In this document: piece by piece, positions 1,556 to 59,950 of the stretch
Position numbering within the stretch: the stretch's first letter is position 1
Layout: the number at the start of each line of letters is the position of its first letter
Source: Bacteroidia bacterium
GTDB taxonomy: Bacteria; Bacteroidota; Bacteroidia; JADZBD01
NCBI GenBank assembly: GCA_020852255.1
Contig: JADZBD010000001.1
Coordinates: forward strand, 1-64,000
Direction: 5' to 3'
DNA length: 64,000 bases
Program-made: the position numbers and the translations under genes
The notes under the pieces: model-generated
What the model saw: only the letters and a program-made list of their open reading frames with translations
Told to the model about the DNA's origin: nothing
Databases searched by the model: none

Positions 1556-3376
1556 TCAATGATGGTCATCCATCCTGCCGCCATCGTACTCACCAGGTTC
1601 CAGCGGAACAGTTTGCGGAATAAAATCTGTTGATTTCCCCGGTTTGCTGTAATCATAAGCCCAGCGATGAACCTCGGGCAGTTCGCCCTGCCAGTTTCCG
1701 TGTACATGACCTACTCCGTTGGTCCACTCCAGGGTATTAGCATCCCAGGGATTTTCTGTAGCTCGCTCACCCCTGAACATGCTGTAAAAGAAATTGTACA
1801 GGAAAATCACTTGTGCCAAAGCGCCAACCAGCGCAAAAATAGTTACGAGCACGTTAATATCCACCAGGTTATCGAACATTGGAAATTCGGAGTTGGTATA
1901 ATAACGGCGGGGTACACCTGCCAGTCCAAGGAAGTGCATTGGAAAGAATACACCATAAGCACAAACAAAGGTGAGCCAGAAGTGGAGGTAACCAAGTTTC
2001 TTATTCATCATGCGCAGGAACATTTTCGGGTACCAGTGATAGACACCTGCAAACATTCCCAGAATAGCCGAAAGTCCCATCACAATATGGAAGTGCGCCA
2101 CCACAAAATAAGTATCATGAACAGGTATATCCAATGCCGAATCTGCCAGAATGATACCTGTGACTCCTCCCGATACGAATGTAGAGACCAATCCGATGCA
2201 AAAGAGCATGGCCGGAGTAAACCGGATGTTCCCCTTCCAAAGCGTTGTAATGTAATTAAACGCCTTCACAGCGGAGGGGATAGCGATCAGGAGTGTTGTA
2301 AATACAAACACAGATCCAAGAAATGGATTCATTCCGGTGACATACATATGGTGGCCCCAGACAATGAATGAGAGAAAGCCGATGGCCAGCATGGAACCCA
2401 CCATTGCCCGGTAGCCGAAGATAGGTTTACGTGCGTTAGTGGAAATAATTTCCGAGGCAATACCCAGGGCGGGTAACAGAACAATATACACCTCGGGGTG
2501 GCCAAGGAACCAGAAAAGGTGTTGAAAGAGGATGGGGCTTCCGCCAACATGATCCAGCGCCTGACCGCCAATGTAGATATCCGAAAGATAGAAACTGGTT
2601 CCCAGTGTACGGTCGAACATCAGCAGCAGAACACAGCCAACCAGCACCGGGAACGATAGTACGCCCAAAACAGCCGTGATAAGAAATGCCCACATGGTAA
2701 GGGGCATCCGTCCCATGGTCATTCCCTTTGTGCGAAGATTCATGATAGTAATAATGTAATTCAATCCTCCCAGCAGAGCCGAAACGACGAAGAGGGTCAT
2801 AGAAAGCAACCACAGGGTCATTCCCAATCCTGACCCGGAAATTGCCTGAGGCAGGGCAGAAAGCGGCGGATAAATGGTCCATCCGCCGGAAGCAGGTCCT
2901 GACTCCACGAACAGAGAGACCAGCATAATTACGGAAGAAACAAAGAAAAACCAGTAGGAAAGCATATTCAGAAATCCGGAAGCCATATCCCTGGCACCAA
3001 TCTGATATGGAATGAGAAGATTTGAAAACGTTCCGGACAATCCTCCTGTAAGAACGAAGAACACCATAATAGTTCCGTGAATGGTCACTAGGGCGAGATA
3101 CATATCGGGCGTCATGATTCCATCGGGTGCCCATTTATCTCCCAGCATCCAGTTTACGAAGGCAAATTTTTCGCCGGGCCAGGCCAGCTGCAGGCGAAAA
3201 AGTGTAGACATGAGCATTGCGACCACTCCCATGATCACCGCCGTAATAAGGAACTGGCGGGAGATCACTTTGTGATCCATGCTGAATACATATTTAGTTA
3301 CCCACGTCTCCTCATGGTGATCATGATGATCATGCGCGTGATCATGAAGATGGGCCTGTGCGTGTTCGCCTGACAT
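1556..3376 (-). CDS. coxA: Cytochrome c oxidase subunit I (A1-type heme-copper oxidase)
   Basis: Catalytic subunit of the aa3-type oxidase, holding heme a, heme a3 and CuB, in the inner membrane. Length is 606 residues. Visible hallmarks are the MDHKVISRQF start region, HGTIMVFFVL with a heme ligand, GHPEVYIVLLP (the Glu of subtype A1 proton channels and the CuB His-Tyr pair), WGHHMYVTGMNP with two CuB histidines, and HDTYFVVAHFHIVMG with the heme a3 and heme a histidines. Residues 5-21 contain nine histidines, an unusual cytoplasmic N-terminal extension. It is the last gene of the act-cox operon, 37 bases after coxB and before a strong terminator. Subunit III is not encoded here. The electron donor is inferred to be ACIII, encoded upstream. 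Confidence 0.97.
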   Translation of the reverse strand: MSGEHAQAHLHDHAHDHHDHHEETWVTKYVFSMDHKVISRQFLITAVIMGVVAMLMSTLFRLQLAWPGEKFAFVNWMLGDKWAPDGIMTPDMYLALVTIHGTIMVFFVLTGGLSGTFSNLLIPYQIGARDMASGFLNMLSYWFFFVSSVIMLVSLFVESGPASGGWTIYPPLSALPQAISGSGLGMTLWLLSMTLFVVSALLGGLNYIITIMNLRTKGMTMGRMPLTMWAFLITAVLGVLSFPVLVGCVLLLMFDRTLGTSFYLSDIYIGGQALDHVGGSPILFQHLFWFLGHPEVYIVLLPALGIASEIISTNARKPIFGYRAMVGSMLAIGFLSFIVWGHHMYVTGMNPFLGSVFVFTTLLIAIPSAVKAFNYITTLWKGNIRFTPAMLFCIGLVSTFVSGGVTGIILADSALDIPVHDTYFVVAHFHIVMGLSAILGMFAGVYHWYPKMFLRMMNKKLGYLHFWLTFVCAYGVFFPMHFLGLAGVPRRYYTNSEFPMFDNLVDINVLVTIFALVGALAQVIFLYNFFYSMFRGERATENPWDANTLEWTNGVGHVHGNWQGELPEVHRWAYDYSKPGKSTDFIPQTVPLEPGEYDGGRMDDHH

Positions 3377-3413: not shown

Positions 3414-4487
3414 TCAGGGGTTCTTCTTTGCTGTATCCGGGGAAACAACCGGCAGAGAATCCGCCGGAGCCGGGGTGTTAATTACGGGAACTGGAGCATT
3501 GTCTGTTTTGAAAATAACCTTGCTCTTTTTCTCTTCGTACCATTTGCGGAATGCATCCTCCTCCTCCACCACAATGTCCAACTTCATGTTATAATGAGCT
3601 GTTCCGCAGATTTTGTTGCAAAGCAGAATATACTGAAACTCCGGATTACCGGTAATCACCCTCATGCTGTCGGTGGTAATGGTGGGAAGAAAATGTACCT
3701 GTGTCTGAAGACCGGGTACTGTATTCATTTGCTGACGAAAATGAGGGAAGTATGCTGAGTGTATAACATCCTTTGAACGGAGAGAGAAGAGCACCCGCTT
3801 TCCTTTTGGAACGTGGATCTCATTGTACACGATAAAGTCATCTTCAGATGCAGGGTCTGAAGCGTCAATACCGATAGCATTTTTGGTTGAAATCAGGCGG
3901 AAATTACTCTTCCCGAGCTTATTGTCGTCACCGGAATAGCGCGCGGTCCATTTAAACTGTTCTGATACCAGTTCAATCAGCACATAGTCCTCTCCGGCTG
4001 CCACAGGATCACGTTGGAGTTTGTTCCATGTGCGGAGGCCGAGTACAATGATGATGGCCATTACAATTCCCGGTACCAGCGTCCAGAGTAATTCCAGTTT
4101 GTGATTCTCGGGATAGAACAAAGCCACGCGACCCGGCACCGAACGGTACTTCCATGCAAAATAAAAAAGAAGGAAGTTTACCAATACGAATACAATCGTG
4201 ATGATTAGAAAATTAAAGTTCATCAGCCAGTCAAGTTCCTGCCCTTCTTCGGAGGCTGCCACCGGAAGCAGGAGATCCTTGTAGCTGTAAAACTGCCAAA
4301 TGCAGAATCCGAAAAAGGCAAGCATAAAGAGCAGAAACATATTGCCGTTCGTGCTGTTGTCCCGATCCGTAACAATCCATGCCGGAGGTCCGCCGCGCAG
4401 TTCTGCAGAGAGTTCGAAAATCCGGACAATGCGTGCCAGCACGAGAATCAGGATTGCGCAAGCAAAAAGAATCAGATAACCGGTCAT
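3414..4487 (-). CDS. coxB: Cytochrome c oxidase subunit II (CuA subunit)
   Basis: Carries the binuclear CuA centre that receives electrons from cytochrome c on the periplasmic side. The 357-residue protein has an extra N-terminal membrane segment (residues 3-24), two central membrane helices (about 50-66 and 90-112, with a further hydrophobic stretch at 134-151), and a cupredoxin domain. The CuA ligands are visible as His243, Cys290, Cys294, His298 and Met301 in LLCNKICGTAHYNM. A proline/alanine-rich tail of about 30 residues follows. It lies between the short membrane ORF at 4731-4832 and coxA in the ACIII operon. There is no C-terminal heme c domain, so this is not a caa3 fusion; ACIII cytochromes would have to deliver electrons directly. 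Confidence 0.96.
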   Translation of the reverse strand: MTGYLILFACAILILVLARIVRIFELSAELRGGPPAWIVTDRDNSTNGNMFLLFMLAFFGFCIWQFYSYKDLLLPVAASEEGQELDWLMNFNFLIITIVFVLVNFLLFYFAWKYRSVPGRVALFYPENHKLELLWTLVPGIVMAIIIVLGLRTWNKLQRDPVAAGEDYVLIELVSEQFKWTARYSGDDNKLGKSNFRLISTKNAIGIDASDPASEDDFIVYNEIHVPKGKRVLFSLRSKDVIHSAYFPHFRQQMNTVPGLQTQVHFLPTITTDSMRVITGNPEFQYILLCNKICGTAHYNMKLDIVVEEEDAFRKWYEEKKSKVIFKTDNAPVPVINTPAPADSLPVVSPDTAKKNP

Positions 4488-4730
4488 ATTATTTCTTTTT
4501 TCGAGTAGACCCGCCCAGGCAGGCCAATCTAGGTTAGTAAGATTTATGATCTTCGCTATACTTTGGCATGTCGAATATCATATTTTGCTCAAATATATTT
4601 AAATTCTCTCAGGGTCCGCAAAGAATGAGGAAAAAGCCGATAACGAGTTACAATTATGTAACTATCTGATATTCAATAAAAAGGAATGTGCCCTTAAATA
4701 AAAGGGTATCCGGTCCGACACAGAATGCCA
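4488..4730. other. Intergenic stretch between the small membrane ORF and coxB
   Basis: About 240 bases without a convincing gene. It contains CCCTT/AAGGG at 4691-4707 forming a weak hairpin just after the small ORF, AT-rich sequence, and a GC-rich patch at 4510-4523 (CCGCCCAGGCAGGC) that shares the CAGGCAGGC core with the inverted repeat at 61772-61801. No exact TAnnTTTG box was seen on the minus strand, so coxBA probably depends on the upstream operon promoter, but a separate promoter cannot be excluded. Confidence 0.5.
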
Positions 4731-4832
4731 CTATTCTCCCCTTTTGAGGCGCGAGGAGAGCCGGTTAATGTTAAGGCACTGCCGCAGAACGAGGGCAGCG
4801 ATGGCGGCAATAATTACGATGAGATATATCAT
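4731..4832 (-). CDS. Small single-span membrane protein in the ACIII-oxidase operon (33 aa, unrecognised)
   Basis: An ATG at 4832 opens a 33-codon frame ending in TAG at 4731, on the same strand as the operon and starting 28 bases after the actF stop. The product begins MIYLIVIIAAIAALVLRQC and ends with a basic tail (RLSSRLKRGE). That is one 16-residue hydrophobic helix followed by a positively charged segment, as expected for a small accessory subunit with its C-terminus in the cytoplasm. I do not recognise it as a named family. Its place between actF and coxB suggests a helix associated with ACIII or the oxidase. The alternative is a chance ORF: short frames of this size do occur, but the strand, spacing and helix-plus-basic-tail layout argue for a gene. 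Confidence 0.5.
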   Translation of the reverse strand: MIYLIVIIAAIAALVLRQCLNINRLSSRLKRGE

Positions 4833-4860: not shown

Positions 4861-6123
4861 TCAGGCGTGATGATGAATACTTTCGTCGAGGTAAGGATCG
4901 TGCCTGGCGAGCAGAGGAGCCTTGGTAAGAAAATGATGCAGGCGGTTAAGCGTGAATCCGAGGAAGATAAGGAACATACCCAGTTCTATACCTCCCAGAT
5001 GCCAATGACTGGCAACGGTGGGCGGCATAACAACCACAAACACATCCAGCCAGTGAAAGAAAAAGATGGTGTAGCAAACGATGGTCAGGATTCCGCTATG
5101 ACGTTTAGCATCACGTGACATCATCAGCAGCATCGGCAGTGCGAAGTTGACGAAGAAAAGAGTCCATTGTATTCCCAGGTAGCCGTTGGTCTGGAAGCGG
5201 CTGGTGTAGTACGTTACTTCTTCGGGGATATTAGCATACCAGATGAGCATATACTGACAGAAGAACAGATAGCTCCATAGGAAAGAAACGGCGAACACCC
5301 ACTTACCCAGATCATGAATATGACTGTCGTTCACATATTCTAGGTATCCATGACGCTTGAGGTGAAGCACCAGCATGAGAATGGTGATCATAGAGGAGAT
5401 CCAGATTCCGGAGAAGGTATACCAACCCCACATGGTGGAAAACCAGTGAACATCCAATGACATGGTCCAATCCCAGGAGGCCACTGAAGAAGTAAAGCCA
5501 AAGAATACGAGGAAGAATGCGCCCCAGGTTATATTTTTAAAGTGATTAGCCGTTCCTCCCTGCAGATCTTCATTGATGGAGTTGGCTACCATTTTTCTCT
5601 GGCAGAGGATCCAGATGAGGAAGAACACAACGAATCGTGCCCAGAAAAACACCGGATTAAGGTAGGCTGCTTTATCCGCGATTTTCGCATCAAAATGAGG
5701 GCTGGCAGGATCATAAACATCCGGATCCATCCAGTGGTACAAATGGTGAAGGTGAAATTGTCCGGCCAGAAGAACCACCAGCATGAAAATAGCGCCAATG
5801 GGCAGGAATTTTGAAACAGCTTCCGTTACCCGTTTAAACACGGAGGCGTAATGCGATTCCGTTGCGTATTTGAGTGCCATAAAAAAAGTGGCTCCCAGTC
5901 CGATACCCATAAAGAAAAACGAATTGACTAGCAGATTGGCCCACAAACGGGTGGAGAAATCTGCCGCATGGCCTGCATGCTCTCCTCCTGCGTGTTCTTC
6001 TCCGTGACCGCCCATGAAATGCATGACCAGTCCAACAGCAAAAAGAATGATACCCGCTAACATCACAGCGAGAGTAATTTTCTTCGTTTTTGCCGGTACG
6101 GTGTAATTCAGCTTAAGTTCCAT
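4861..6123 (-). CDS. actF: ACIII subunit ActF (quinol:cytochrome c oxidoreductase membrane subunit)
   Basis: Integral membrane subunit of alternative complex III, which oxidises menaquinol and passes electrons to c-type cytochromes. I chose the ATG at 6123 (MELKLNYTVPAKTKK, 420 residues). An in-frame start 24 codons upstream would overlap actE and adds a non-conserved leader. About ten hydrophobic helices are visible, beginning with KITLAVMLAGIILFAVGLVMHF, then a short His/Gly/Glu-rich loop (HGEEHAGGEHAGHAA) and a conserved core with WDWTMSLDVHWFSTMWGWYTF. It ends in a His-rich tail (DESIHHHA). ActF is paralogous in fold to ActC (NrfD family). It lies between actE and the small membrane ORF; no actG is seen. 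Confidence 0.92.
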   Translation of the reverse strand: MELKLNYTVPAKTKKITLAVMLAGIILFAVGLVMHFMGGHGEEHAGGEHAGHAADFSTRLWANLLVNSFFFMGIGLGATFFMALKYATESHYASVFKRVTEAVSKFLPIGAIFMLVVLLAGQFHLHHLYHWMDPDVYDPASPHFDAKIADKAAYLNPVFFWARFVVFFLIWILCQRKMVANSINEDLQGGTANHFKNITWGAFFLVFFGFTSSVASWDWTMSLDVHWFSTMWGWYTFSGIWISSMITILMLVLHLKRHGYLEYVNDSHIHDLGKWVFAVSFLWSYLFFCQYMLIWYANIPEEVTYYTSRFQTNGYLGIQWTLFFVNFALPMLLMMSRDAKRHSGILTIVCYTIFFFHWLDVFVVVMPPTVASHWHLGGIELGMFLIFLGFTLNRLHHFLTKAPLLARHDPYLDESIHHHA

Positions 6124-6158: not shown

Positions 6159-6791
6159 TTATTTTTCTTTCTTCTTTTCCAATGTAGCTCCGCAACGCTG
6201 CTGATAAACAGAATCTGCTGACATAGTATTAAAATCAATTCCCTGAAGCGTCTGCACATAACGGATGATCTTCCAGCGCTCTTCCATATTCAGTTGAGCG
6301 GCATGAGATCCCATCATATTCTTACCGTGGTGAATAGAGTGCATCATTTTCCCTTCCGATAGATTCTTCAGCGGTCCGGAATAAGAAGGCGGCGGTGAAG
6401 GGTATTTCCCGATGTTCACCATGTGGCCGTCGCCCTGTCCGGTAGCGCCATGACAGTGCTGACAAAATTTATCATAAAGCACTTTCCCTGTGCCAATATT
6501 TTCCGGAGTTGGATCCACCGGATTCTTAAGCCATCTTCCGGCCAGTTCATACCCCTGGTTATTGTTCTTGTAGGGGTAAGGTTTGAATCCCAGGGCAATG
6601 GTGCCTTCTACCGGTTGCCTGTTCGTCATACTGTCAGCAAAGACAGGTGATGAAGAATTGGTTTCATACGACGTAGAGCGATACATGTCCGGCATGAATT
6701 CAATTCCCGGGGAATCCGGGTTCTTTTTACCACAGGCGCCCAGCAATAATGCCGGTGCAACGAGGTAGAGGATATACTTGCTTTTTCTCAT
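6159..6791 (-). CDS. actE: ACIII subunit ActE, monoheme cytochrome c lipoprotein
   Basis: Periplasmic monoheme cytochrome of alternative complex III. The 210-residue protein starts with a lipoprotein signal peptide (lipobox LLGAC, Cys20), so it is membrane-anchored by lipid. A single heme c motif, CQHCH (Cys110 to His114), is followed by GATGQGDGHMV and a Met-rich stretch (MMHSIHHGKNMMGSHA) likely to supply the axial Met. The C-terminal segment LNMEERWKIIRYVQTLQ is typical of class I cytochrome c domains. It sits 10 bases after actD and 35 bases before actF. It is the likely electron exit towards CoxB. Confidence 0.93.
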   Translation of the reverse strand: MRKSKYILYLVAPALLLGACGKKNPDSPGIEFMPDMYRSTSYETNSSSPVFADSMTNRQPVEGTIALGFKPYPYKNNNQGYELAGRWLKNPVDPTPENIGTGKVLYDKFCQHCHGATGQGDGHMVNIGKYPSPPPSYSGPLKNLSEGKMMHSIHHGKNMMGSHAAQLNMEERWKIIRYVQTLQGIDFNTMSADSVYQQRCGATLEKKKEK

Positions 6792-50707: not shown

Positions 50708-52564
50708 TCAGTATTCCGTTTCCAGGGCTGGTGAAACTGCACGTACGCCGTCTTTGTAATGATACATGATGCAATAGGAATAACGATTCCCCATGTACAG
50801 TTGTGTATCTGTCCAGGAATCTGTCTGTGATGGCACGGATAAATAAAAACTTAAAGGGTCACTGCCCTTCGCCCGGTAAATGCTCACAGAACGTACATCT
50901 TCCGGTGTACGAAAAAACAGATGAATACAATGCAGGCTGAGATCGGCTTTTATGGAATCCAGTCGCACCTGCCGGTTAACGTACTGTATACTTCTTGTTT
51001 CTGAATACGACTGATTTCCGGATGCATCCTTGCTCCTGAAACGTAACTGATAGGTTCCGGGCTGCGGTAAACTGTCATTTACACATTTCCCAAGGAGAGA
51101 ATCCGGAATGAAGCGATTGAATCTGCTCCCGCTGTTCTCCCATTCCAGAAAAGTGCTGTCTGAGTTACCGGCAGAGAAAACCGCACCGCACCGGAAATAC
51201 TTCCCTTCTGTTTCGAAACAAATGAATGAGGGTACGGGAGGAGGAAGTGTATCCGTCCTGAAAACCAACAGGGTATCGGACGGGGCGGAACTGTTGTGAT
51301 GCTCGTCAACGGCGCGAATGAAATAAAATATTTCCGTTGTCAGGGTAAAAAGCGAGACCGTATCCGTGAATAACGTATCCGAAACGGGTGCACTGCTCCT
51401 CTCAGTGAATTCCTCCTGCAGGGCATTGGCGCGAAACACGCGGTAATAGGATGCGCCGGAGGAGCTCCACTGCAGTGTAACCAGCCCTTTCCTGTTACAG
51501 AATCCGTTCAGGTTTCCGGGTGCACGTGGCGGAATCGTATCGGGAACAAAATAATAAAACGGGAAGGATGCGTATTCCCCGCAGCAAATTCGTACATAAC
51601 GAAAGGGGTCTTTGGCGGTAAAACGAATCTCGTTCGGTGTGCATTGCGTTGCGCTTTTTTTATCCTGCTGGGAGGTCACACTGTCGCCCGTGAATACCTG
51701 CCAGTTCCCTTCCCGGCACCCTCCCCGGTATTTAAGGACAAAAACATCGCCCGTATCTTTTCTTATTTCTTCAATCAACAGGTCTCCGCCGTGCTGAGCA
51801 GGTTTCCACACGATTGTTTTGCTCTCCATAAAATTTCCGCGGCGCCCGAACGGATCTATGCCGCACACCCTGTAACGGTAATTTCCTTCTACAGATGTGG
51901 AATCTGAAAAATAAACGGTGCGTGAAGTATCCGCCGCACTGCGCAAGGGCGTGATCAGCGGTAAACCGGCCGTTTCCCAATCGCCGGAATCTCTTTTCCG
52001 CTCTAACTTGTATCCTGTGTACTTTGCACCTGAAGGTTCTTCCCACTTCAGCAAAATATAATCCGCCCCGGGAATCGTGATAAGACTATCCGGCTCCGGA
52101 AGTTCCGGCAATTCCTCCTGCAGTTCTGTATTCACCCCGGCCAGCTGCAGCTTCACGCGGAGGCATCTGAACGGTAAATGCCAAATGCCGCCGCATCCTG
52201 CCGTACGTGCACAACCGAAATCACGGTCGAGCACCGAAGCAGCGAGCTGAAGCATTGTTCCCGTGCAGCGCAGTGGATCTGACCATACGGCCAGCGTGAA
52301 GCGAAAAGCCGGATTTGCTTCTACCTGCTTTCGCCAGGCTGAATCCTTCAGCGGCAAGGATCTGACCTGGAAACTCAACTGCTCTCCGCCCTGACCATAC
52401 ACTACCAGTGCTGCTCCTTCACGCAGCATCTGGTGCAATAAAATGCTGTCGAGTACCGCCCAGCGGACCAACAAGGTATCATTGCTCTGTAACCACTTCC
52501 CGGCTACTTTCTGTGCATTGGTGCTCAGAGAAAATAAAAGAAATATCCCCGCGAGGTATTTCAT
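50708..52564 (-). CDS. Secreted protein with fibronectin type III-like domains (618 aa)
   Basis: Signal peptide MKYLAGIFLLFSLSTNAQ. An N-terminal unique region (about residues 19-145) has several cysteines. From about 160 there are at least three FN3-like modules, visible as ADYILLKWEEPSGAKYTGYKLERK with YRYRVCGIDPFGRRG, GLVTLQWSSSGASYYRVFR with YFIRAVDEHHNSSAPSD, and STFLEWENSG with YQLRFRSKDASGNQSYS; a fourth degenerate one lies at the C-terminus (HLFFRTPEDVRSVSIYRAKG). No T9SS sorting domain or membrane anchor is seen. Its start overlaps the stop of the 968-residue gene by 4 bases (ATGA), so the two are coupled and probably act together. Function not recognised. Confidence 0.82.
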   Translation of the reverse strand: MKYLAGIFLLFSLSTNAQKVAGKWLQSNDTLLVRWAVLDSILLHQMLREGAALVVYGQGGEQLSFQVRSLPLKDSAWRKQVEANPAFRFTLAVWSDPLRCTGTMLQLAASVLDRDFGCARTAGCGGIWHLPFRCLRVKLQLAGVNTELQEELPELPEPDSLITIPGADYILLKWEEPSGAKYTGYKLERKRDSGDWETAGLPLITPLRSAADTSRTVYFSDSTSVEGNYRYRVCGIDPFGRRGNFMESKTIVWKPAQHGGDLLIEEIRKDTGDVFVLKYRGGCREGNWQVFTGDSVTSQQDKKSATQCTPNEIRFTAKDPFRYVRICCGEYASFPFYYFVPDTIPPRAPGNLNGFCNRKGLVTLQWSSSGASYYRVFRANALQEEFTERSSAPVSDTLFTDTVSLFTLTTEIFYFIRAVDEHHNSSAPSDTLLVFRTDTLPPPVPSFICFETEGKYFRCGAVFSAGNSDSTFLEWENSGSRFNRFIPDSLLGKCVNDSLPQPGTYQLRFRSKDASGNQSYSETRSIQYVNRQVRLDSIKADLSLHCIHLFFRTPEDVRSVSIYRAKGSDPLSFYLSVPSQTDSWTDTQLYMGNRYSYCIMYHYKDGVRAVSPALETEY

Positions 52565-55467
52565 GGTCCGGTAAATGTGCAGTTATTTCCCGCCTCCAGA
52601 TCAAAGGAACAGGAACCGTTCACGATACCCAGGATCGAATAGCTGCAGGCCACGTGACCGTGAAAATATCCGGGGTTGGGTCCCCTCGCGCTAAGCAGCA
52701 TGGCCAGTGAACCATTCAGTAATGTAATATCAAAATCACCCCGGCACCAGTCGGCATGGCACCAGTCCGGCTGCAGATGACCTTTGATTCCGATCACGCC
52801 CTGAAGGTGCAGATACATTTGTCCCTGTGCCATCCACCCATTCATTCCCGGTTCTGCAATCGAACCGCAATGCAGATTGGGATTCAACCGTGTGAGCATC
52901 AGGTCTAATCCACATCCATACTGGAATCCTCCGTATAAAGTGAAAAAATCCCAACCTGTTTCCTTATACAGGGAGGAACCTATGCGTATGCCTCCCACAA
53001 ATCCCTGTCCTTGCCCGAGCGCCTGCAGATCGCGCTGCTGCATAATTCCGGCATTACTCACCAGAGTACTCACCTGTGACGGTACCGGCAATGGCGGATC
53101 CAGTAAATTGCCGACCATAAAATAGGTATTGGCCGTGGCCCAGCCTGCCAGGGTAACCTGCGAAGGTGCGGCAGGGCGGCCGGCCATAAAGTACCAATGC
53201 ACGGGGTCGATGTGCAGGCCCGCTGTTCCCTGTCCGCTTACCTGATCACCTGCCTTAATACTAACGCTGAACTGGGCATCAATGATCCTGTTCACCGGGT
53301 CGAAGAGCAGTTGTGCCTGTCCTTTCACCGTTGCGGGCTTTCCTGCTCTTTCCGCAACAGTAGCAAGCATGAATACATTTCCCTTCAATTTCACGGAACT
53401 GATTCCGCCTCCGGAATGAAAGTTCACTTCAAGCATCACATCACCATTGGCGGCTCGTTCCGAAGGAGTGTAATGAAACGTACACCCTGCCTTTAAGCCG
53501 AACGGATACTGCGCGTCGGGCAGATAGCGTTGCGTAACCGGACCGGGTGGTAGTCCGAGCGCAGCAATGTACTGCTCCGGTGTGGTTTTCTCAGGGCGCA
53601 TATTCCTGCATAATCCGCCACTAAGACTTCGGATGGAAAATCCACTGACGCCAAGAGGAATCGTCACCGGAATATGAACGTCGGCATACCAGTAGCGGAA
53701 ACCGCTGTTTCCGAAAACACAGCTTGCTGAAGCGGTATCGCGAAGAACATCCCGCACCATAAATTTCAGGGCTCCGCGAAAACCGGTTCCAAACTCCGGA
53801 TCATTTTCGAACGAGGCCGCAATTCCTTGCAGATAAAACGCTCCCGTTTGCACATTCACCGAAATGCCGCCGATACGTAATTTATCGAATTTCCATTTTA
53901 CTTTCTGTACGCTGTAGGGGTGATCACCCGGATAGGTCACCGTTTCTGTTTCATGTTTCATTTGTACCATCACACGCACCGAGGCGGAAAGCGGCTGCAC
54001 GGGATCATCGGACAAATTCAGGGAAAGATCGGCTTTAATGGATGGTTTCTGGGGGTCAACTATTAACGACAGTGAGTGGATACTCAAAGGATAATGGTGA
54101 AGGGTGTTACTCCCGGACGAAGTAAAAGCAAACACGCCGCGAACCAGGTAAGGTGGTTCTGAGATCATGGTGAGCTCGTTTACGTCCAGTTTCCCTGTTC
54201 GGAAGGATGGATCTCCGAAAGAAATTCTTCCGTTAAGAACCAGTTTGGGTTTAAGCTTGCCCTGATGCTTGACCACTTCTATAAAGGAAGTGGGAAAAAC
54301 ATCTACACGGGAATGCATCGCCTGAAAGGAAAGATCGTTGCCGGCTGACAGTAAGAAACGGCAATCCGATTCTTTGAGCGACTCATTGTACGTCAGCGAG
54401 GCGGAATAATTCAGCTGCGCTGCCGAATCCATCAGCGGAATGCGGATCTTACCGTTGAACGCTCCTCCCTGCAGCCGGTTACACAGCCATTTGGCCGAGA
54501 GGGCATCCACAGAAAATCCCCATCCGTCCATATCGGCTCCTCCGTTAATCACCACGCCGTTTACCTGTATCTGACCTGAAAATCCGGCTTCATCAATCAA
54601 ACATTTTACCGCCCGAACTGTGGAGCGTGTACCGGAAGATGAAATAGCCCGGGGGAGGGTAATGTTCAACTCCTCCAGGTAAAAACCTGTCCACAAAGGC
54701 AGTGTGCAGGAATACCCCGCAGGAAACTGCATTCCGGCCGCATTCTTTATTGAACTCATGTCCACCACCGCACGGGAAACGGAAAACGACCAGTCTTTTA
54801 GTCCACGGATACAAAAGGGTGTGATGCTTACTTCCGCCAAAAGATCATTCAGATCCTGTGTGTAGCATTGGAACACGGCCTTCACCTCTTTTTCCCATGT
54901 CCTGGCGGAATCCGGCAATAATTTTTCTCTGGAAAAAATAAATTCTCCCTTTAACTGAACGCCCTCGTAACCGTTGCAGTTCCAGTCTACATAATTATTT
55001 CCGTCGGCGGGGAATCGGAGTTTAAGTCCGGGGAAGAGATCGATGGTGTGGTCACTCACCAGCATTAAACGCGCCTGTGGTCCGCCGATCACTCCCCTGG
55101 GATTGAACATCACTCGGCGGGCGGCAAAACAGATTTTCCGGCCGGCGCCGGGAAACTGCAAAGCCATATAGGCATTGAAATATGCGCCTTCCGGAAGAAA
55201 AACAGCGGAGTCAATGGCGATGAGATAGGAAAAATTTCCAATCTGCCGTCGAATACCAACCGGCAGGTCTGCCAGGGAATCCGGACCATGGTCGCCCACG
55301 ATCCGGTTCTCTGTTTCCACTTTCTGCAAAACCGACAATACCAGCAACTGTCCGGGATCCGGAAGCGTATCCTGCGCACGCGCTGCTCCCAAGAGAAGCA
55401 GGAAGGCGCAAAAAAATAATACCGCCCGCCGGGGAACACGGTTCAGATCTGTCCTGTCCATTTGCAT
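52561..55467 (-). CDS. Large secreted protein of unknown function (968 aa)
   Basis: An N-terminal signal (RRAVLFFCAFLLLLGAARAQ, residues about 13-32) precedes a long beta-rich protein with no domain I can name. Repeated strand-loop patterns occur through residues 90-640 (GRKICFAARRVMFNPRG, VQLKGEFIFSREKL, ARLMLVSDHTIDLFPGLKLRFP). The C-terminal third has GLHIDPVHWYFMAGRP, an FVGGIRIG segment and a Cys/Trp-rich end (PDWCHADWCRGDFDI, GSCSFDLEAGNNCTFTGP). No sorting domain. Two possible ATG starts are 55467 and 55461. It is the first gene of a three-gene unit (968, FN3, barrel) with an exact -7 box 7 bases upstream. The repeated layers resemble a beta-helix or barrel-associated protein, but this is a guess. 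Confidence 0.78.
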   Translation of the reverse strand: MQMDRTDLNRVPRRAVLFFCAFLLLLGAARAQDTLPDPGQLLVLSVLQKVETENRIVGDHGPDSLADLPVGIRRQIGNFSYLIAIDSAVFLPEGAYFNAYMALQFPGAGRKICFAARRVMFNPRGVIGGPQARLMLVSDHTIDLFPGLKLRFPADGNNYVDWNCNGYEGVQLKGEFIFSREKLLPDSARTWEKEVKAVFQCYTQDLNDLLAEVSITPFCIRGLKDWSFSVSRAVVDMSSIKNAAGMQFPAGYSCTLPLWTGFYLEELNITLPRAISSSGTRSTVRAVKCLIDEAGFSGQIQVNGVVINGGADMDGWGFSVDALSAKWLCNRLQGGAFNGKIRIPLMDSAAQLNYSASLTYNESLKESDCRFLLSAGNDLSFQAMHSRVDVFPTSFIEVVKHQGKLKPKLVLNGRISFGDPSFRTGKLDVNELTMISEPPYLVRGVFAFTSSGSNTLHHYPLSIHSLSLIVDPQKPSIKADLSLNLSDDPVQPLSASVRVMVQMKHETETVTYPGDHPYSVQKVKWKFDKLRIGGISVNVQTGAFYLQGIAASFENDPEFGTGFRGALKFMVRDVLRDTASASCVFGNSGFRYWYADVHIPVTIPLGVSGFSIRSLSGGLCRNMRPEKTTPEQYIAALGLPPGPVTQRYLPDAQYPFGLKAGCTFHYTPSERAANGDVMLEVNFHSGGGISSVKLKGNVFMLATVAERAGKPATVKGQAQLLFDPVNRIIDAQFSVSIKAGDQVSGQGTAGLHIDPVHWYFMAGRPAAPSQVTLAGWATANTYFMVGNLLDPPLPVPSQVSTLVSNAGIMQQRDLQALGQGQGFVGGIRIGSSLYKETGWDFFTLYGGFQYGCGLDLMLTRLNPNLHCGSIAEPGMNGWMAQGQMYLHLQGVIGIKGHLQPDWCHADWCRGDFDITLLNGSLAMLLSARGPNPGYFHGHVACSYSILGIVNGSCSFDLEAGNNCTFTGP

Positions 55468-55552: not shown

Positions 55553-57904
55553 TCACTTCTTTCCACGTCCCATCACCGCCACCCATCCCGCTTTCACTGT
55601 ATTCTTGCTGTCGGCCACCCACAAAACAAAATAATACACTCCATCGCTCACATCCATCGCATTCCAGTTGTTGAGGTAATCCGCGGTCTCGTAAATAAGA
55701 TTTCCCCAGCGGTTATAGATCACAATACGGCTGCCAGGAAACTGATCCAGGTTATCGAAAACAAGGTATTCGTTGTGCGAATCGCCGTTGGGTGTTATCA
55801 CGTTGGGAACTGAGATAGAATCCACAATCTCCAGGCAAATATTGGCCGTGTCGCGACAACCAAGATTACTCACTACTACGAGTTCTATGCAATGGGTTCC
55901 CGAACCCTGCAAATACTGAGTGGGAGGATTTTGAGAAGTAAAAGAAGAATCTCCGAAGTTCCAGAACCAGGCAATAATATTTCCACTTCCTCCTGTGGAA
56001 CCGTCGGTTACGCTGAAAGGAGTAGAACTTGAACCTGCCATTGGATTAACTGTAAATGCTGCGGTGGGACCGGCCAGGCTGTTCACCGTTCCTGTTGCAG
56101 TGGTGGTACATCCGTTCGCATCGGTAATGGTTACAGTGTAAGTGCCACCGTTCAGATTTCCCAGTGCTGCTCCGTTACCGTTAACAGGTGCCCAGGAATA
56201 CGTGTATGGTCCTGTTCCTCCTGTTACATTCACATTCACGCTTCCGGTACTCATACCGCAGGTGTCGGCCGCAGTGGTAGTGGGCGCGCTCATGGGTGCC
56301 GGCTGTGTAACGGTAACAGTGGCTGTTGTACTGCAACCGTTAACGTCCGTAATAGTTACCGTGTAGATTCCCGCGGCCAGGCCGGTGGCAGTTTGCAAGG
56401 TCTGAGAAGAAGGTGACCATAGGTATGAATACGGAGGAGTTCCTCCTGCCGGATTCACACCCGCGCTTCCGTTCGTTCCGCCGGCACACGTTACATTTAC
56501 CAGTGCCGATGCTGTTGCAAGTAACTGCCCCGGCTGTGTGATGGTTACAGTGGCCGTAGCTGTGCAGCCATTGGCATCCGTGATGGTGACCGTATAAGTT
56601 CCTGCCGTCAGCCCGGTTGCGGTGGAATTAGTACCGCCTGAAGGTGACCAGTTATATGTAAAGGGTGCCGTTCCTCCGGAAGGTGTGGCGGTAGCTGTAC
56701 CGGTAGACTGACCGAAGCATGCCACATTCGTAGAAGTGGCTCCCGCCGTCACCGGATTGGGTGAACTAATTACAATCGTGTCCATTCCTGCAAGGCAGGC
56801 TGCATCACTCACTGTTACGATGTACGTGCCCGGACACAACCCTGTTGCAGTTTGTGTGGTTTGCACCGGCACAGTATTCCAGGTGTATGAATACGGCGGC
56901 GTTCCACCGTTCGGTGTTACGGTAGATGTTCCACTGCAAGGATTACATGCTGAACTTCCGTTGGTAGCTGTTACAGGTAATACTCCGCTCTGTGGTACAC
57001 AGGTGGTGCAGGCAGTGGTTTGCCAGTAAAGTCCGATCATCATCAGGTTGAAACAATCAGAACCGTTTCCGTCGGCGCCAAACGTTGAATTGGTCTGAGA
57101 ACTTGTAACCGTAGTGCTCTGGTCTACAAAATTCCACCAGTCGTCCGCAATGTTGAAATACGGGCTGCCGTTCACACTCACCATTCCGCCGATGCTTTGA
57201 AAATCGGCTATGATCAGAAATCCACGGGCGAGGCTGGGTGTGGCGCAAACAGATAAGCCGGTCATAGTACTGGGATTCTGCGTTCCTATTCCCACATTAC
57301 AACCATCCCAAATCACAATGTCGCCCAGATAAGTCATTGAAGGGTCGGAATAAATAATGATCAATGTAGCACCGTCGGCATCGTTACCAGGGGTTGTGGT
57401 GCTGGTAGGCAAACCGCTCACCATATAATTCCCATTACCCTGAATAATGGAAGTCACATCCGCACGGTAAGAGTAGGTGCCGCTGTAACCCCAGCATTTA
57501 TCCTGACAGTTTCCGATCATGGTCATGGGAAAATTCTGCGTAGTATTTGCCGGATTGGTGATCGTTGCGGTTACCGCCATTCCGTTTCCGGAAGCATCCA
57601 TGTATAAAAATGCTTTTTCAATCACAGCGCAAACAGGAAGTCCTGCAATGGAATAGGTTGCAGGCTGAAGAACACCGGGAGGAGAAAAACGCTGTCCCAG
57701 TTTGTTGGTAGCGGTTACATAATTCAGGCCGCATTTTGAAAGAGTGTACGTTTGCCCGAGTGAACCACTGCCGTCAAAAGGTGCCGGAATTTTTGCTGTG
57801 GTAGTGTTTGGTGGCGCACAGGTGCCGGGGACAATCTGCGGAGTGATTTGTCCGAAGAGTGAATGCAGAAATACTAATCCTGTTAACAGTGAAAAGAACT
57901 TCAT
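55553..57904 (-). CDS. SprB-repeat surface protein with T9SS type B sorting domain (783 aa)
   Basis: Signal peptide MKFFSLLTGLVFLHSLFGQ. Residues about 20-310 form an N-terminal domain that resembles adhesin-like DUF3344 modules (YRADVTSIIQGNGNYMVSG, GATLIIIYSDPSMTYLGDIVIWDG), low certainty. Then about four SprB-type repeats of 75-80 residues (GTATATPSGGTAPFTYNWSP and GTYTVTITDANGCTATATVTI), a PKD-like module (AWFWNFGDSSFTSQNPP), and a type B C-terminal domain: VPNVITPNGDSHNEYLVFDN, IVIYNRWGNLIYE, GVYYFVLWV. It should be exported by T9SS and attached outside the cell, perhaps with a role in gliding or adhesion. It follows the paralogue at 57908 by 3 bases and is cotranscribed with it. Confidence 0.93.
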   Translation of the reverse strand: MKFFSLLTGLVFLHSLFGQITPQIVPGTCAPPNTTTAKIPAPFDGSGSLGQTYTLSKCGLNYVTATNKLGQRFSPPGVLQPATYSIAGLPVCAVIEKAFLYMDASGNGMAVTATITNPANTTQNFPMTMIGNCQDKCWGYSGTYSYRADVTSIIQGNGNYMVSGLPTSTTTPGNDADGATLIIIYSDPSMTYLGDIVIWDGCNVGIGTQNPSTMTGLSVCATPSLARGFLIIADFQSIGGMVSVNGSPYFNIADDWWNFVDQSTTVTSSQTNSTFGADGNGSDCFNLMMIGLYWQTTACTTCVPQSGVLPVTATNGSSACNPCSGTSTVTPNGGTPPYSYTWNTVPVQTTQTATGLCPGTYIVTVSDAACLAGMDTIVISSPNPVTAGATSTNVACFGQSTGTATATPSGGTAPFTYNWSPSGGTNSTATGLTAGTYTVTITDANGCTATATVTITQPGQLLATASALVNVTCAGGTNGSAGVNPAGGTPPYSYLWSPSSQTLQTATGLAAGIYTVTITDVNGCSTTATVTVTQPAPMSAPTTTAADTCGMSTGSVNVNVTGGTGPYTYSWAPVNGNGAALGNLNGGTYTVTITDANGCTTTATGTVNSLAGPTAAFTVNPMAGSSSTPFSVTDGSTGGSGNIIAWFWNFGDSSFTSQNPPTQYLQGSGTHCIELVVVSNLGCRDTANICLEIVDSISVPNVITPNGDSHNEYLVFDNLDQFPGSRIVIYNRWGNLIYETADYLNNWNAMDVSDGVYYFVLWVADSKNTVKAGWVAVMGRGKK

Positions 57905-57907
57905 GAT

Positions 57908-59788
57908 CTATTTGTTTTTTAATACCGTTAGATAACCGTAACGCACCGTGTTCTTTCCGTCGTTCACAGTCAGAATAAAATAATAGGTTCCATCGCTCAC
58001 GTTTTTTGCATTCCAGTCGTTAGCATAACTGCCATTCTCGTAAATAAGATTTCCCCAGCGGTTATAGATCATCAGGCGGCTTCCGGGATAGGCTTCCAGA
58101 TTTTTAAATTCCAGCATGTCATTCTGCCCGTCGCCATTGGGTGTAATCACATTCGGGATCATTACACTATCGGCAATCAGGATGCAATCTGTAGTGGAAT
58201 CCGTACATCCCAGGCTGTTGGTAACAATAAGTGTAGCACAGTAATTTCCCTGCGTCGTATATGTTTGCGGCGGCGGATTCTGTGTGGTATAGGTGTTGGT
58301 TCCGATGATCCATGTCCATGCCACAAGGTTCCCTCCTCCTCCGCTGGAACCATCACTGAACTGCACGGGTTCGTTTGTAGCATACGAAGTTTGGGATGTA
58401 TTAATCACCGCTGTGGGTCCGGCGAGATTTCCCACATTCTGACTCACCGTAGTGGTACAACCATTCGCATCCGTTATAACACATGAATAGGTGCCCGCAT
58501 TCAATCCGGTTGCGCTGGCGCCGGTTTGTCCGTTCGACCACTGGTAGGAATAAGGGCCGGTTCCTCCCGAAGGGATGACGGCGGTAAAGCCGGTTCCGAT
58601 AGAGCAAGTATCGGTTCCGTTTGCTCCGAGAACCGTTAGTGGTAGTGGTTCAGTAACGGTGACCGTTCCGGTATACGTACAATTTCCGTCGGAAACCGTA
58701 ACGGTATAAACGCCTGCTCCAAGACCGGAAATGCCGGGAGTAGTAGCCCCGGTGGACCAGTTGTATGTGTAAGGCCCCGGACCTGTAACGGTAATATTGG
58801 CTGAACCGTTGGTTTGACCATTACAAAGAATATTGCCGGAAGTAAGCGAGAGGCCGGGAATTCCTATGTTCACACAAACCGTATCGCTGAAAGAAGCATT
58901 GCTGCATCCGTAAGTTACTGTGGCCTGGTAACAGGTGTTGGTAGTAGGAGTCACGGTGATCTGTGCTGTGTTGCCCACGTTCTGCAGGTTTGAAAGATCG
59001 GTCCAGGCAATGGTATAACTGGTGGGTGGTCCGGAAGGCGACCAGCGGTAGCCATCATTCGTGACCTGCCATTGCGTCGGATAATTTCTTCCTGTTACAA
59101 AATCTGCCTGTGTGCCATTGTTATTGTGCAGACCGTGAATAGCCGCACCTCCGTTCCAGGTGGAGCAGATCTGGCTAAGCATAATATGTGTTTCGATGAT
59201 ATTGGTAGTTTCAAAAAGAACCATCTGTCCGGTGTAAAGCAGGTTATTGCAGGAGAAATAAGGAACATTTTCAAAGCTGACCACAAAATACCTGAAGGGG
59301 GCGGTACCGTAGGTGTTGTAGCGGATAATCCCACCAACACTGGGATCTATATCCACCCATGGACCCATGATGGCATCCACAGGAGTCATATTGGTGAGAT
59401 AATTCGGATCCGGAATCGCCGCATTGATCGGCCAGGGAGAATATTGATTGGCCTGAGTGAGATCGAAGCAGAGGTAATTGTTGGTGGAGATCAGCAGATC
59501 CGTGTGCGGTGTTCCGTAAAAACAAAAAGTAAAACCGATGGGAATAACACCGGAATATTCATCATCCACCGGCACGGGCAGCACGGTTCCCTGGTTAAAA
59601 GGAACAACCGGAGCGTAAGGGATTGATGCCACCGTATAGGCGGTGGACTGCGGGATATTAGTAACAGAAGCTGTGAGTGTTGCATTTCCTGCACAAAGCG
59701 TGGTATCAGTTCCGGCATTGATGAACTGGTTCTGTGCGATACAGACACTTCCGAAGGCAACGAAAAACAGGAACGGGGCGATCCTCAT
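57908..59788 (-). CDS. SprB-repeat surface protein with T9SS type B sorting domain (626 aa)
   Basis: I set the start at ATG 59788, which gives signal peptide MRIAPFLFFVAFGSVCIAQ; a longer frame reaching 59893 adds a leader with no signal character. The N-terminal domain (residues about 20-310, FTFCFYGTPHTDLLISTNNYLCF, APFRYFVVSFENVPYF, TGQMVLFETTNIIETHI) has the motif order of a nidogen-like (NIDO) extracellular domain, tentative. Two SprB-type repeats follow (GSANITVTGPGPYTYNWSTG, GTYSCVITDANGCTTTV), a PKD-like module and a type B C-terminal domain (IPNVITPNGDGQNDMLEFKN, LMIYNRWGNLIYE). Its last 200 residues are clearly paralogous to the next gene. Near-consensus -7 box (TATATTTA) at 59826-59833. 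Confidence 0.93.
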   Translation of the reverse strand: MRIAPFLFFVAFGSVCIAQNQFINAGTDTTLCAGNATLTASVTNIPQSTAYTVASIPYAPVVPFNQGTVLPVPVDDEYSGVIPIGFTFCFYGTPHTDLLISTNNYLCFDLTQANQYSPWPINAAIPDPNYLTNMTPVDAIMGPWVDIDPSVGGIIRYNTYGTAPFRYFVVSFENVPYFSCNNLLYTGQMVLFETTNIIETHIMLSQICSTWNGGAAIHGLHNNNGTQADFVTGRNYPTQWQVTNDGYRWSPSGPPTSYTIAWTDLSNLQNVGNTAQITVTPTTNTCYQATVTYGCSNASFSDTVCVNIGIPGLSLTSGNILCNGQTNGSANITVTGPGPYTYNWSTGATTPGISGLGAGVYTVTVSDGNCTYTGTVTVTEPLPLTVLGANGTDTCSIGTGFTAVIPSGGTGPYSYQWSNGQTGASATGLNAGTYSCVITDANGCTTTVSQNVGNLAGPTAVINTSQTSYATNEPVQFSDGSSGGGGNLVAWTWIIGTNTYTTQNPPPQTYTTQGNYCATLIVTNSLGCTDSTTDCILIADSVMIPNVITPNGDGQNDMLEFKNLEAYPGSRLMIYNRWGNLIYENGSYANDWNAKNVSDGTYYFILTVNDGKNTVRYGYLTVLKNK

Positions 59789-59950
59789 AAACTCTGGAAT
59801 AGGTAATCTCTTAATAATCAGACTATAAATATACCCATGAGGTTGCCTCCCGCGGCGAGGTATTTTTAAAAATTCCGGGTTGCCCGAACACACTGAAACC
59901 TAAGCCATTGGCCTTCAGGGACAGGGGCATGCGGGCTGCGTTCAAAAGTG

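Follow-up and report, generated by a model that had tools for sequence, protein, structure and literature searches.

A 33-codon frame between actF and coxB of a Bacteroidia genome as a candidate stand-alone homologue of the first CoxB helix

The actF–coxB interval

The stretch of DNA analysed here, 64,000 nucleotides in full and referred to below as the window, carries on its minus strand the genes actA, actB, actC, actD, actE and actF, followed by a small ORF, coxB and coxA. The names of the neighbouring genes were upheld by Pfam for the NrfD-type ActC, ActD, CoxB and CoxA, and by gene order and homologues for ActF. The actF gene of ACIII (4861..6123, minus strand) has homologues in 56 of the 60 genomes searched, and its start is likely the ATG at 6123 and not the TTG at 6195, as judged by comparing the N-terminus with L003–L005. 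The coxB gene (3414..4487, minus strand) encodes a 357-aa oxidase subunit II, identified by Pfam COX2_TM and COX2 and by AlphaFold2 helices, and is followed by coxA, encoding oxidase subunit I (1556..3376, minus strand; Pfam COX1).

The small ORF occupies positions 4731..4832 of the minus strand, exactly as claimed in an earlier note on this DNA, which had placed a 33-codon frame there, 28 nt past actF. Its ATG lies at 4832 and its TAG ends at 4731, giving a product of 33 aa, MIYLIVIIAAIAALVLRQCLNINRLSSRLKRGE. The actF stop ends at 4861, leaving a spacer of 28 nt, while 243 nt separate the end of the small ORF from the coxB start at 4487. The codon usage is gene-like, at the 88th percentile of 33-codon gene windows and the 98th percentile of gene-shadowing ORFs. 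Neither position −3 nor position −6 is A, and A at these positions favours initiation in F. johnsoniae (PMC6847099); the start context is poor, which is a weak point of the gene reading. A further point against this reading is that 33 aa is short and that membrane helices are alike among themselves.

The 243-nt spacer contains a match to the Bacteroidota-type promoter, TTTG-N21-TATATTTG (4590..4622, minus strand), in the right direction for coxB. It is one of two such matches on both strands of the 64 kb, where 1.7 are expected. The match suggests a transcription start of coxB's own; in relatives the act–cox gaps are mostly just 5–125 nt. A terminator search found nothing above chance.

Elsewhere, the window encodes an unusually long protein of 1183 aa rich in MORN_2 repeats (PF07661; 22774–26325, plus strand), two large proteins with SprB repeats and CHU_C signals for type IX secretion (55553–59893, minus strand) and, adjoining that pair at 50708–55467, proteins of 968 and 618 aa without a Pfam match.

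Distribution and constraint of stand-alone ORFs

The actF–coxB gap was examined in actF loci from 30 genomes, the window's own included. Most gaps were shorter than 125 nt and left no room for an ORF; those of L009 and L027 measured 21 and 40 nt. In two loci, L007 and L023, the gap is long, at about 450 and 870 nt, yet holds no stand-alone ORF corresponding to helix 0 of CoxB, the helix described below. A 44-aa hydrophobic ORF was present at the same place in G038, G057 and G014, and stand-alone ORFs between actF and coxB were found in three other families, namely in G038, in genus g15 (three of three species) and in G262. The g15 copies end 23 nt ahead of coxB; the G262 copy, of 52 aa, starts 11 nt past actF, and its TGA stop overlaps the coxB ATG (ATGA). 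A further candidate, an apparent 106-aa stand-alone ORF in G278, was rejected, being an intact CoxB start that runs off the contig.

Such ORFs are rare: they occur in 6 of 395 genomes of the class, in four families, and a copy was present in one of 45 species of the genus of G262 and in one of 12 of the order of G038. No further copies were found among 395 genomes drawn from across the phylum or in 80 named relatives with a profile that may overlook very divergent ones. This rarity argues against an essential role. The earlier note had proposed a new component of the ACIII–oxidase assembly, which does not hold in general, as the nearest relative and sole other member of the family, G001, has an actF–coxB gap of 26 nt and no small ORF. 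Conservation in close relatives, which that note had made its test, is therefore lacking where it would first be expected; homologous frames are nevertheless found in the more distant lineages G038, g15 and G262, with selection in g15, and this overturns the refutation.

Pairwise dN/dS values among the three g15 species (44 codons, no indels) were 0.146/1.32, 0.146/0.86 and 0.019/0.207. When equal numbers of substitutions were placed at random, as many residues survived, with no stop arising, in 0.025%, 0.045% and 2.6% of trials for the three pairs. These comparisons indicate that the g15 copies are under purifying selection, with dN/dS of about 0.1–0.17. The G038 copy kept 24 of 30 residues (80%) relative to its own CoxB at 72% nucleotide identity, with dS saturated, and none of 20,000 random-substitution trials conserved the amino acids as well; by this measure the G038 copy is evidently constrained too. 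The earlier description of the product, a membrane peptide of one helix and a basic tail that gene calling passes over for its shortness, is supported, and the ORF lies where related genomes have homologous ORFs under demonstrable constraint.

Relation to the first helix of CoxB

Canonical oxidase subunit II has two membrane helices. CoxB of the window is predicted to have four (residues 2–30, 41–72, 80–113 and 129–157; AlphaFold2, mean pLDDT 86): in this protein and its Bacteroidia relatives, two extra N-terminal helices (helix 0, residues 2–30, and the next, 41–72) lie ahead of the two canonical ones. Foldseek matches to the CoxB model in the PDB cover about half of the model, with a TMq of about 0.5.

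The small ORF peptide corresponds to CoxB helix 0 (residues 1–30) and ends where the predicted helix 2–30 ends; set side by side with CoxB N-termini, the stand-alone ORFs align with residues 1–30 from the first residue on. A profile of CoxB N-termini gave 45 bits for the G038 copy, 19, 18 and 17 bits for those of G093, G057 and G014, and 11.5 bits for the window peptide, a score reached by 13 of 2000 shuffles that preserve the helix and tail. In 153 loci, where every ORF of 22 aa or more was scored with the profile of CoxB N-termini, the actF–coxB gaps alone held small ORFs exceeding 7.2 bits. The reverse search, with a small-ORF profile against the 395 class genomes, mostly returned CoxB N-termini in frames of 330–480 aa. 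As judged by profile and alignment, the small ORF is a stand-alone homologue of the helix 0 of the neighbouring CoxB and represents no novel family. It is not oxidase subunit II proper, as Pfam detected neither COX2_TM nor the CuA domain in the 33-aa peptide. Pfam and NCBIfam gave no significant match to the peptide, and the PDB held no relevant chain matching the peptide or its profile.

Membership in the stand-alone group was assessed with a profile that left the window out and was built from G038, the three g15 species and G262. With it the window ORF scored 27.5 bits (E 1e-7 over 848 window ORFs), the runner-up 5.8 bits, and none of 5000 shuffles equalled the window ORF; the shuffles preserve helix and tail, and the chance tests cover the 64-kb window and the fetched loci. 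Since G262 had originally been found with a profile including the window peptide, we also tried a stricter training set of G038 and g15 alone, whose copies had been picked for their place and hydrophobicity, with no use of similarity. The window ORF then scored 21.8 bits, above all 5000 shuffles (best shuffle 19.8). Most of this signal is carried by G038, which alone gave 20.9 bits, as against 5.7 for g15 alone. The LNINRLS of the window peptide fits the x-[IV]-x-[KR]-L-S signature of the stand-alone ORFs of 33–52 aa, and in alignment with these copies the peptide keeps L4, Q18, L25, S26 and L29 together with a basic swap. At the level of the peptide profile, this resemblance exceeds what chance yields.

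The swap concerns two charged positions. Among 138 distinct CoxB sequences, Arg or Lys stands at profile position 22 in 125 and Glu, Gln or Asp at position 25 in 133, with Lys25 in one. The stand-alone copies have Lys or Arg at 25 in four of four lineages and Arg or Lys at 22 in none; the window peptide, with Asn at 22 and Arg at 25, is without the CoxB-type residues there.

In a tree, the copy from G038 falls with the CoxB of its own genome (99/99), and a second group unites those of the window, G262 and g15 (91/84). A single clade for all stand-alone copies is not rejected (p-AU 0.31) on 34 columns, too few to settle single versus multiple origin. We infer that the copies derive from partial duplications of the coxB 5′ end, and that there was more than one such event, given the placement of the G038 copy; if the G038 copy was an independent birth, the charge change would have been made at least twice. 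In the window, a local alignment of the ORF with the coxB 5′ end was no better than shuffles as a DNA-level trace of tandem duplication, and the 243-nt spacer held no remnants of a longer coxB copy.

Competing readings, proposed role and known systems

With somewhat better than even confidence, we take the small ORF to be a genuine gene whose product, homologous to CoxB helix 0 but free-standing, is a rare accessory peptide of the ACIII-linked aa3-type oxidase. The earlier idea of an accessory peptide of the respiratory complex is, on the sequence evidence, a plausible account and the best one available, although the peptide belongs to a type already known, being a stand-alone version of the first helix of CoxB.

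The ORF could instead be a decaying relic, a partial coxB 5′ duplicate on which selection has ceased in the window's species, even though the copies in g15 and G038 are functional. Its patchy distribution, with one of 45 species in the genus of G262 and absence from G001, would suit such decay, as would the poor start context and the fact that the window copy is the shortest (33 versus 44–52 aa). Yet the helix-0 unit is free of stops and frameshifts and ends at the predicted helix end, its codon usage is gene-like, and its protein-profile similarity to coxB is kept while DNA similarity is gone, which is not expected of a neutral relic. We regard decay as unlikely, if the most serious of the competing accounts.

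A chance ORF, that is, a hydrophobic non-coding frame resembling a membrane helix, is a little less likely still. Small ORFs are common in the window (634 of 22–60 aa), this one is short, and 11.5 bits with the CoxB profile is within reach of shuffled sequences. Against chance stand the 27.5 bits with the stand-alone profile, unequalled in 5000 shuffles, the same position and direction as in independent copies, and the recurrence of the five conserved residues and the basic swap.

We give very little credence to a regulatory upstream ORF whose translation, rather than its product, tunes coxB expression. The overlap with the coxB start in G262 and the 23-nt distance in g15 would favour such coupling, but in the window coxB lies 243 nt away with a promoter-like site in between, the constraint on amino acids in g15 speaks for the product, and the leader showed neither stable structure (z −1.0, no better than chance) nor an Rfam match. 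Least probable of all is a shortened ActG, the known optional seventh subunit of ACIII: the small ORF lies directly 3′ of actF and ActG is likewise predicted to have a single helix, yet the peptide matched no relevant PDB chain, gave no significant hit in Pfam or NCBIfam, and shows clear homology to CoxB helix 0 instead.

If the small ORF does encode an accessory oxidase peptide, it would be transcribed together with the last part of the act operon; we place its synthesis on the end of the act transcript because coxB has its own promoter-like match at 4590–4622. The peptide would insert N-out/C-in, pack as a supernumerary helix against the extra N-terminal helices of CoxB, and help oxidase assembly or docking of the oxidase to ACIII. 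In F. johnsoniae, the oxidase contacts ACIII via a subunit III without helices 1 and 2 (review, PMC8361435). Subunit III of the window's genome lies outside the window, on another contig, as two short adjacent coxC-like genes of 191 and 241 aa (G000:C2, about 463998–465700; L204 and L205). The F. johnsoniae arrangement and these short genes make extra helices around subunits II and III plausible sites of interface variation. The same contig also carries a gene for a possible subunit IV of 166 aa, along with ctaB-like and SCO-like genes.

The charge change might reflect a topological need, with a free helix whose N-terminus is out carrying positive charge on its cytoplasmic side (positive-inside), or a salt bridge to Glu25 of CoxB. 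A bolder proposal, which we consider doubtful, is that a free copy of CoxB helix 0 has been set loose as a mini-subunit time and again in Bacteroidia, on each occasion with Glu25 changed to Lys or Arg and Arg/Lys22 lost, and that the free helix pairs with helix 0 of CoxB by contact between complementary charges and adjusts oxidase docking on ACIII.

Were the accessory-peptide reading correct, the locus would show the birth of a supernumerary respiratory subunit, with one helix copied beside its parent and its charges altered. It would also supply a concrete candidate for unassigned helices in ACIII–oxidase maps, and would mean that subunits under selection can escape gene callers when their genes are shorter than about 45 codons, here at a known site that can be searched.

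Among known systems, the closest likeness is to CoxB helix 0 of Bacteroidia itself, which the small ORF resembles in length, hydrophobic core, the conserved Gln, Leu-Ser and Leu positions and its adjacent gene, and to which it is homologous by profile; it differs as a free peptide without a CuA domain, with Lys/Arg and not Glu at position 25 and without Arg/Lys at 22. ActG, specific to ACIII, encoded in the act cluster but not in all clusters, and with one predicted membrane helix (PMC5928083), offers a likeness in form and optional occurrence, whereas the small ORF gave no significant match to a family in Pfam or NCBIfam and none to a relevant solved chain in the PDB, and is homologous to an oxidase helix. 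In CtaF of the mycobacterial oxidase, split-off subunit III helices are likewise supplied as a separate polypeptide (PMC8361435). CtaF, however, supplies helices missing from its parent, whereas here CoxB retains helix 0, so that the small peptide would be additional.
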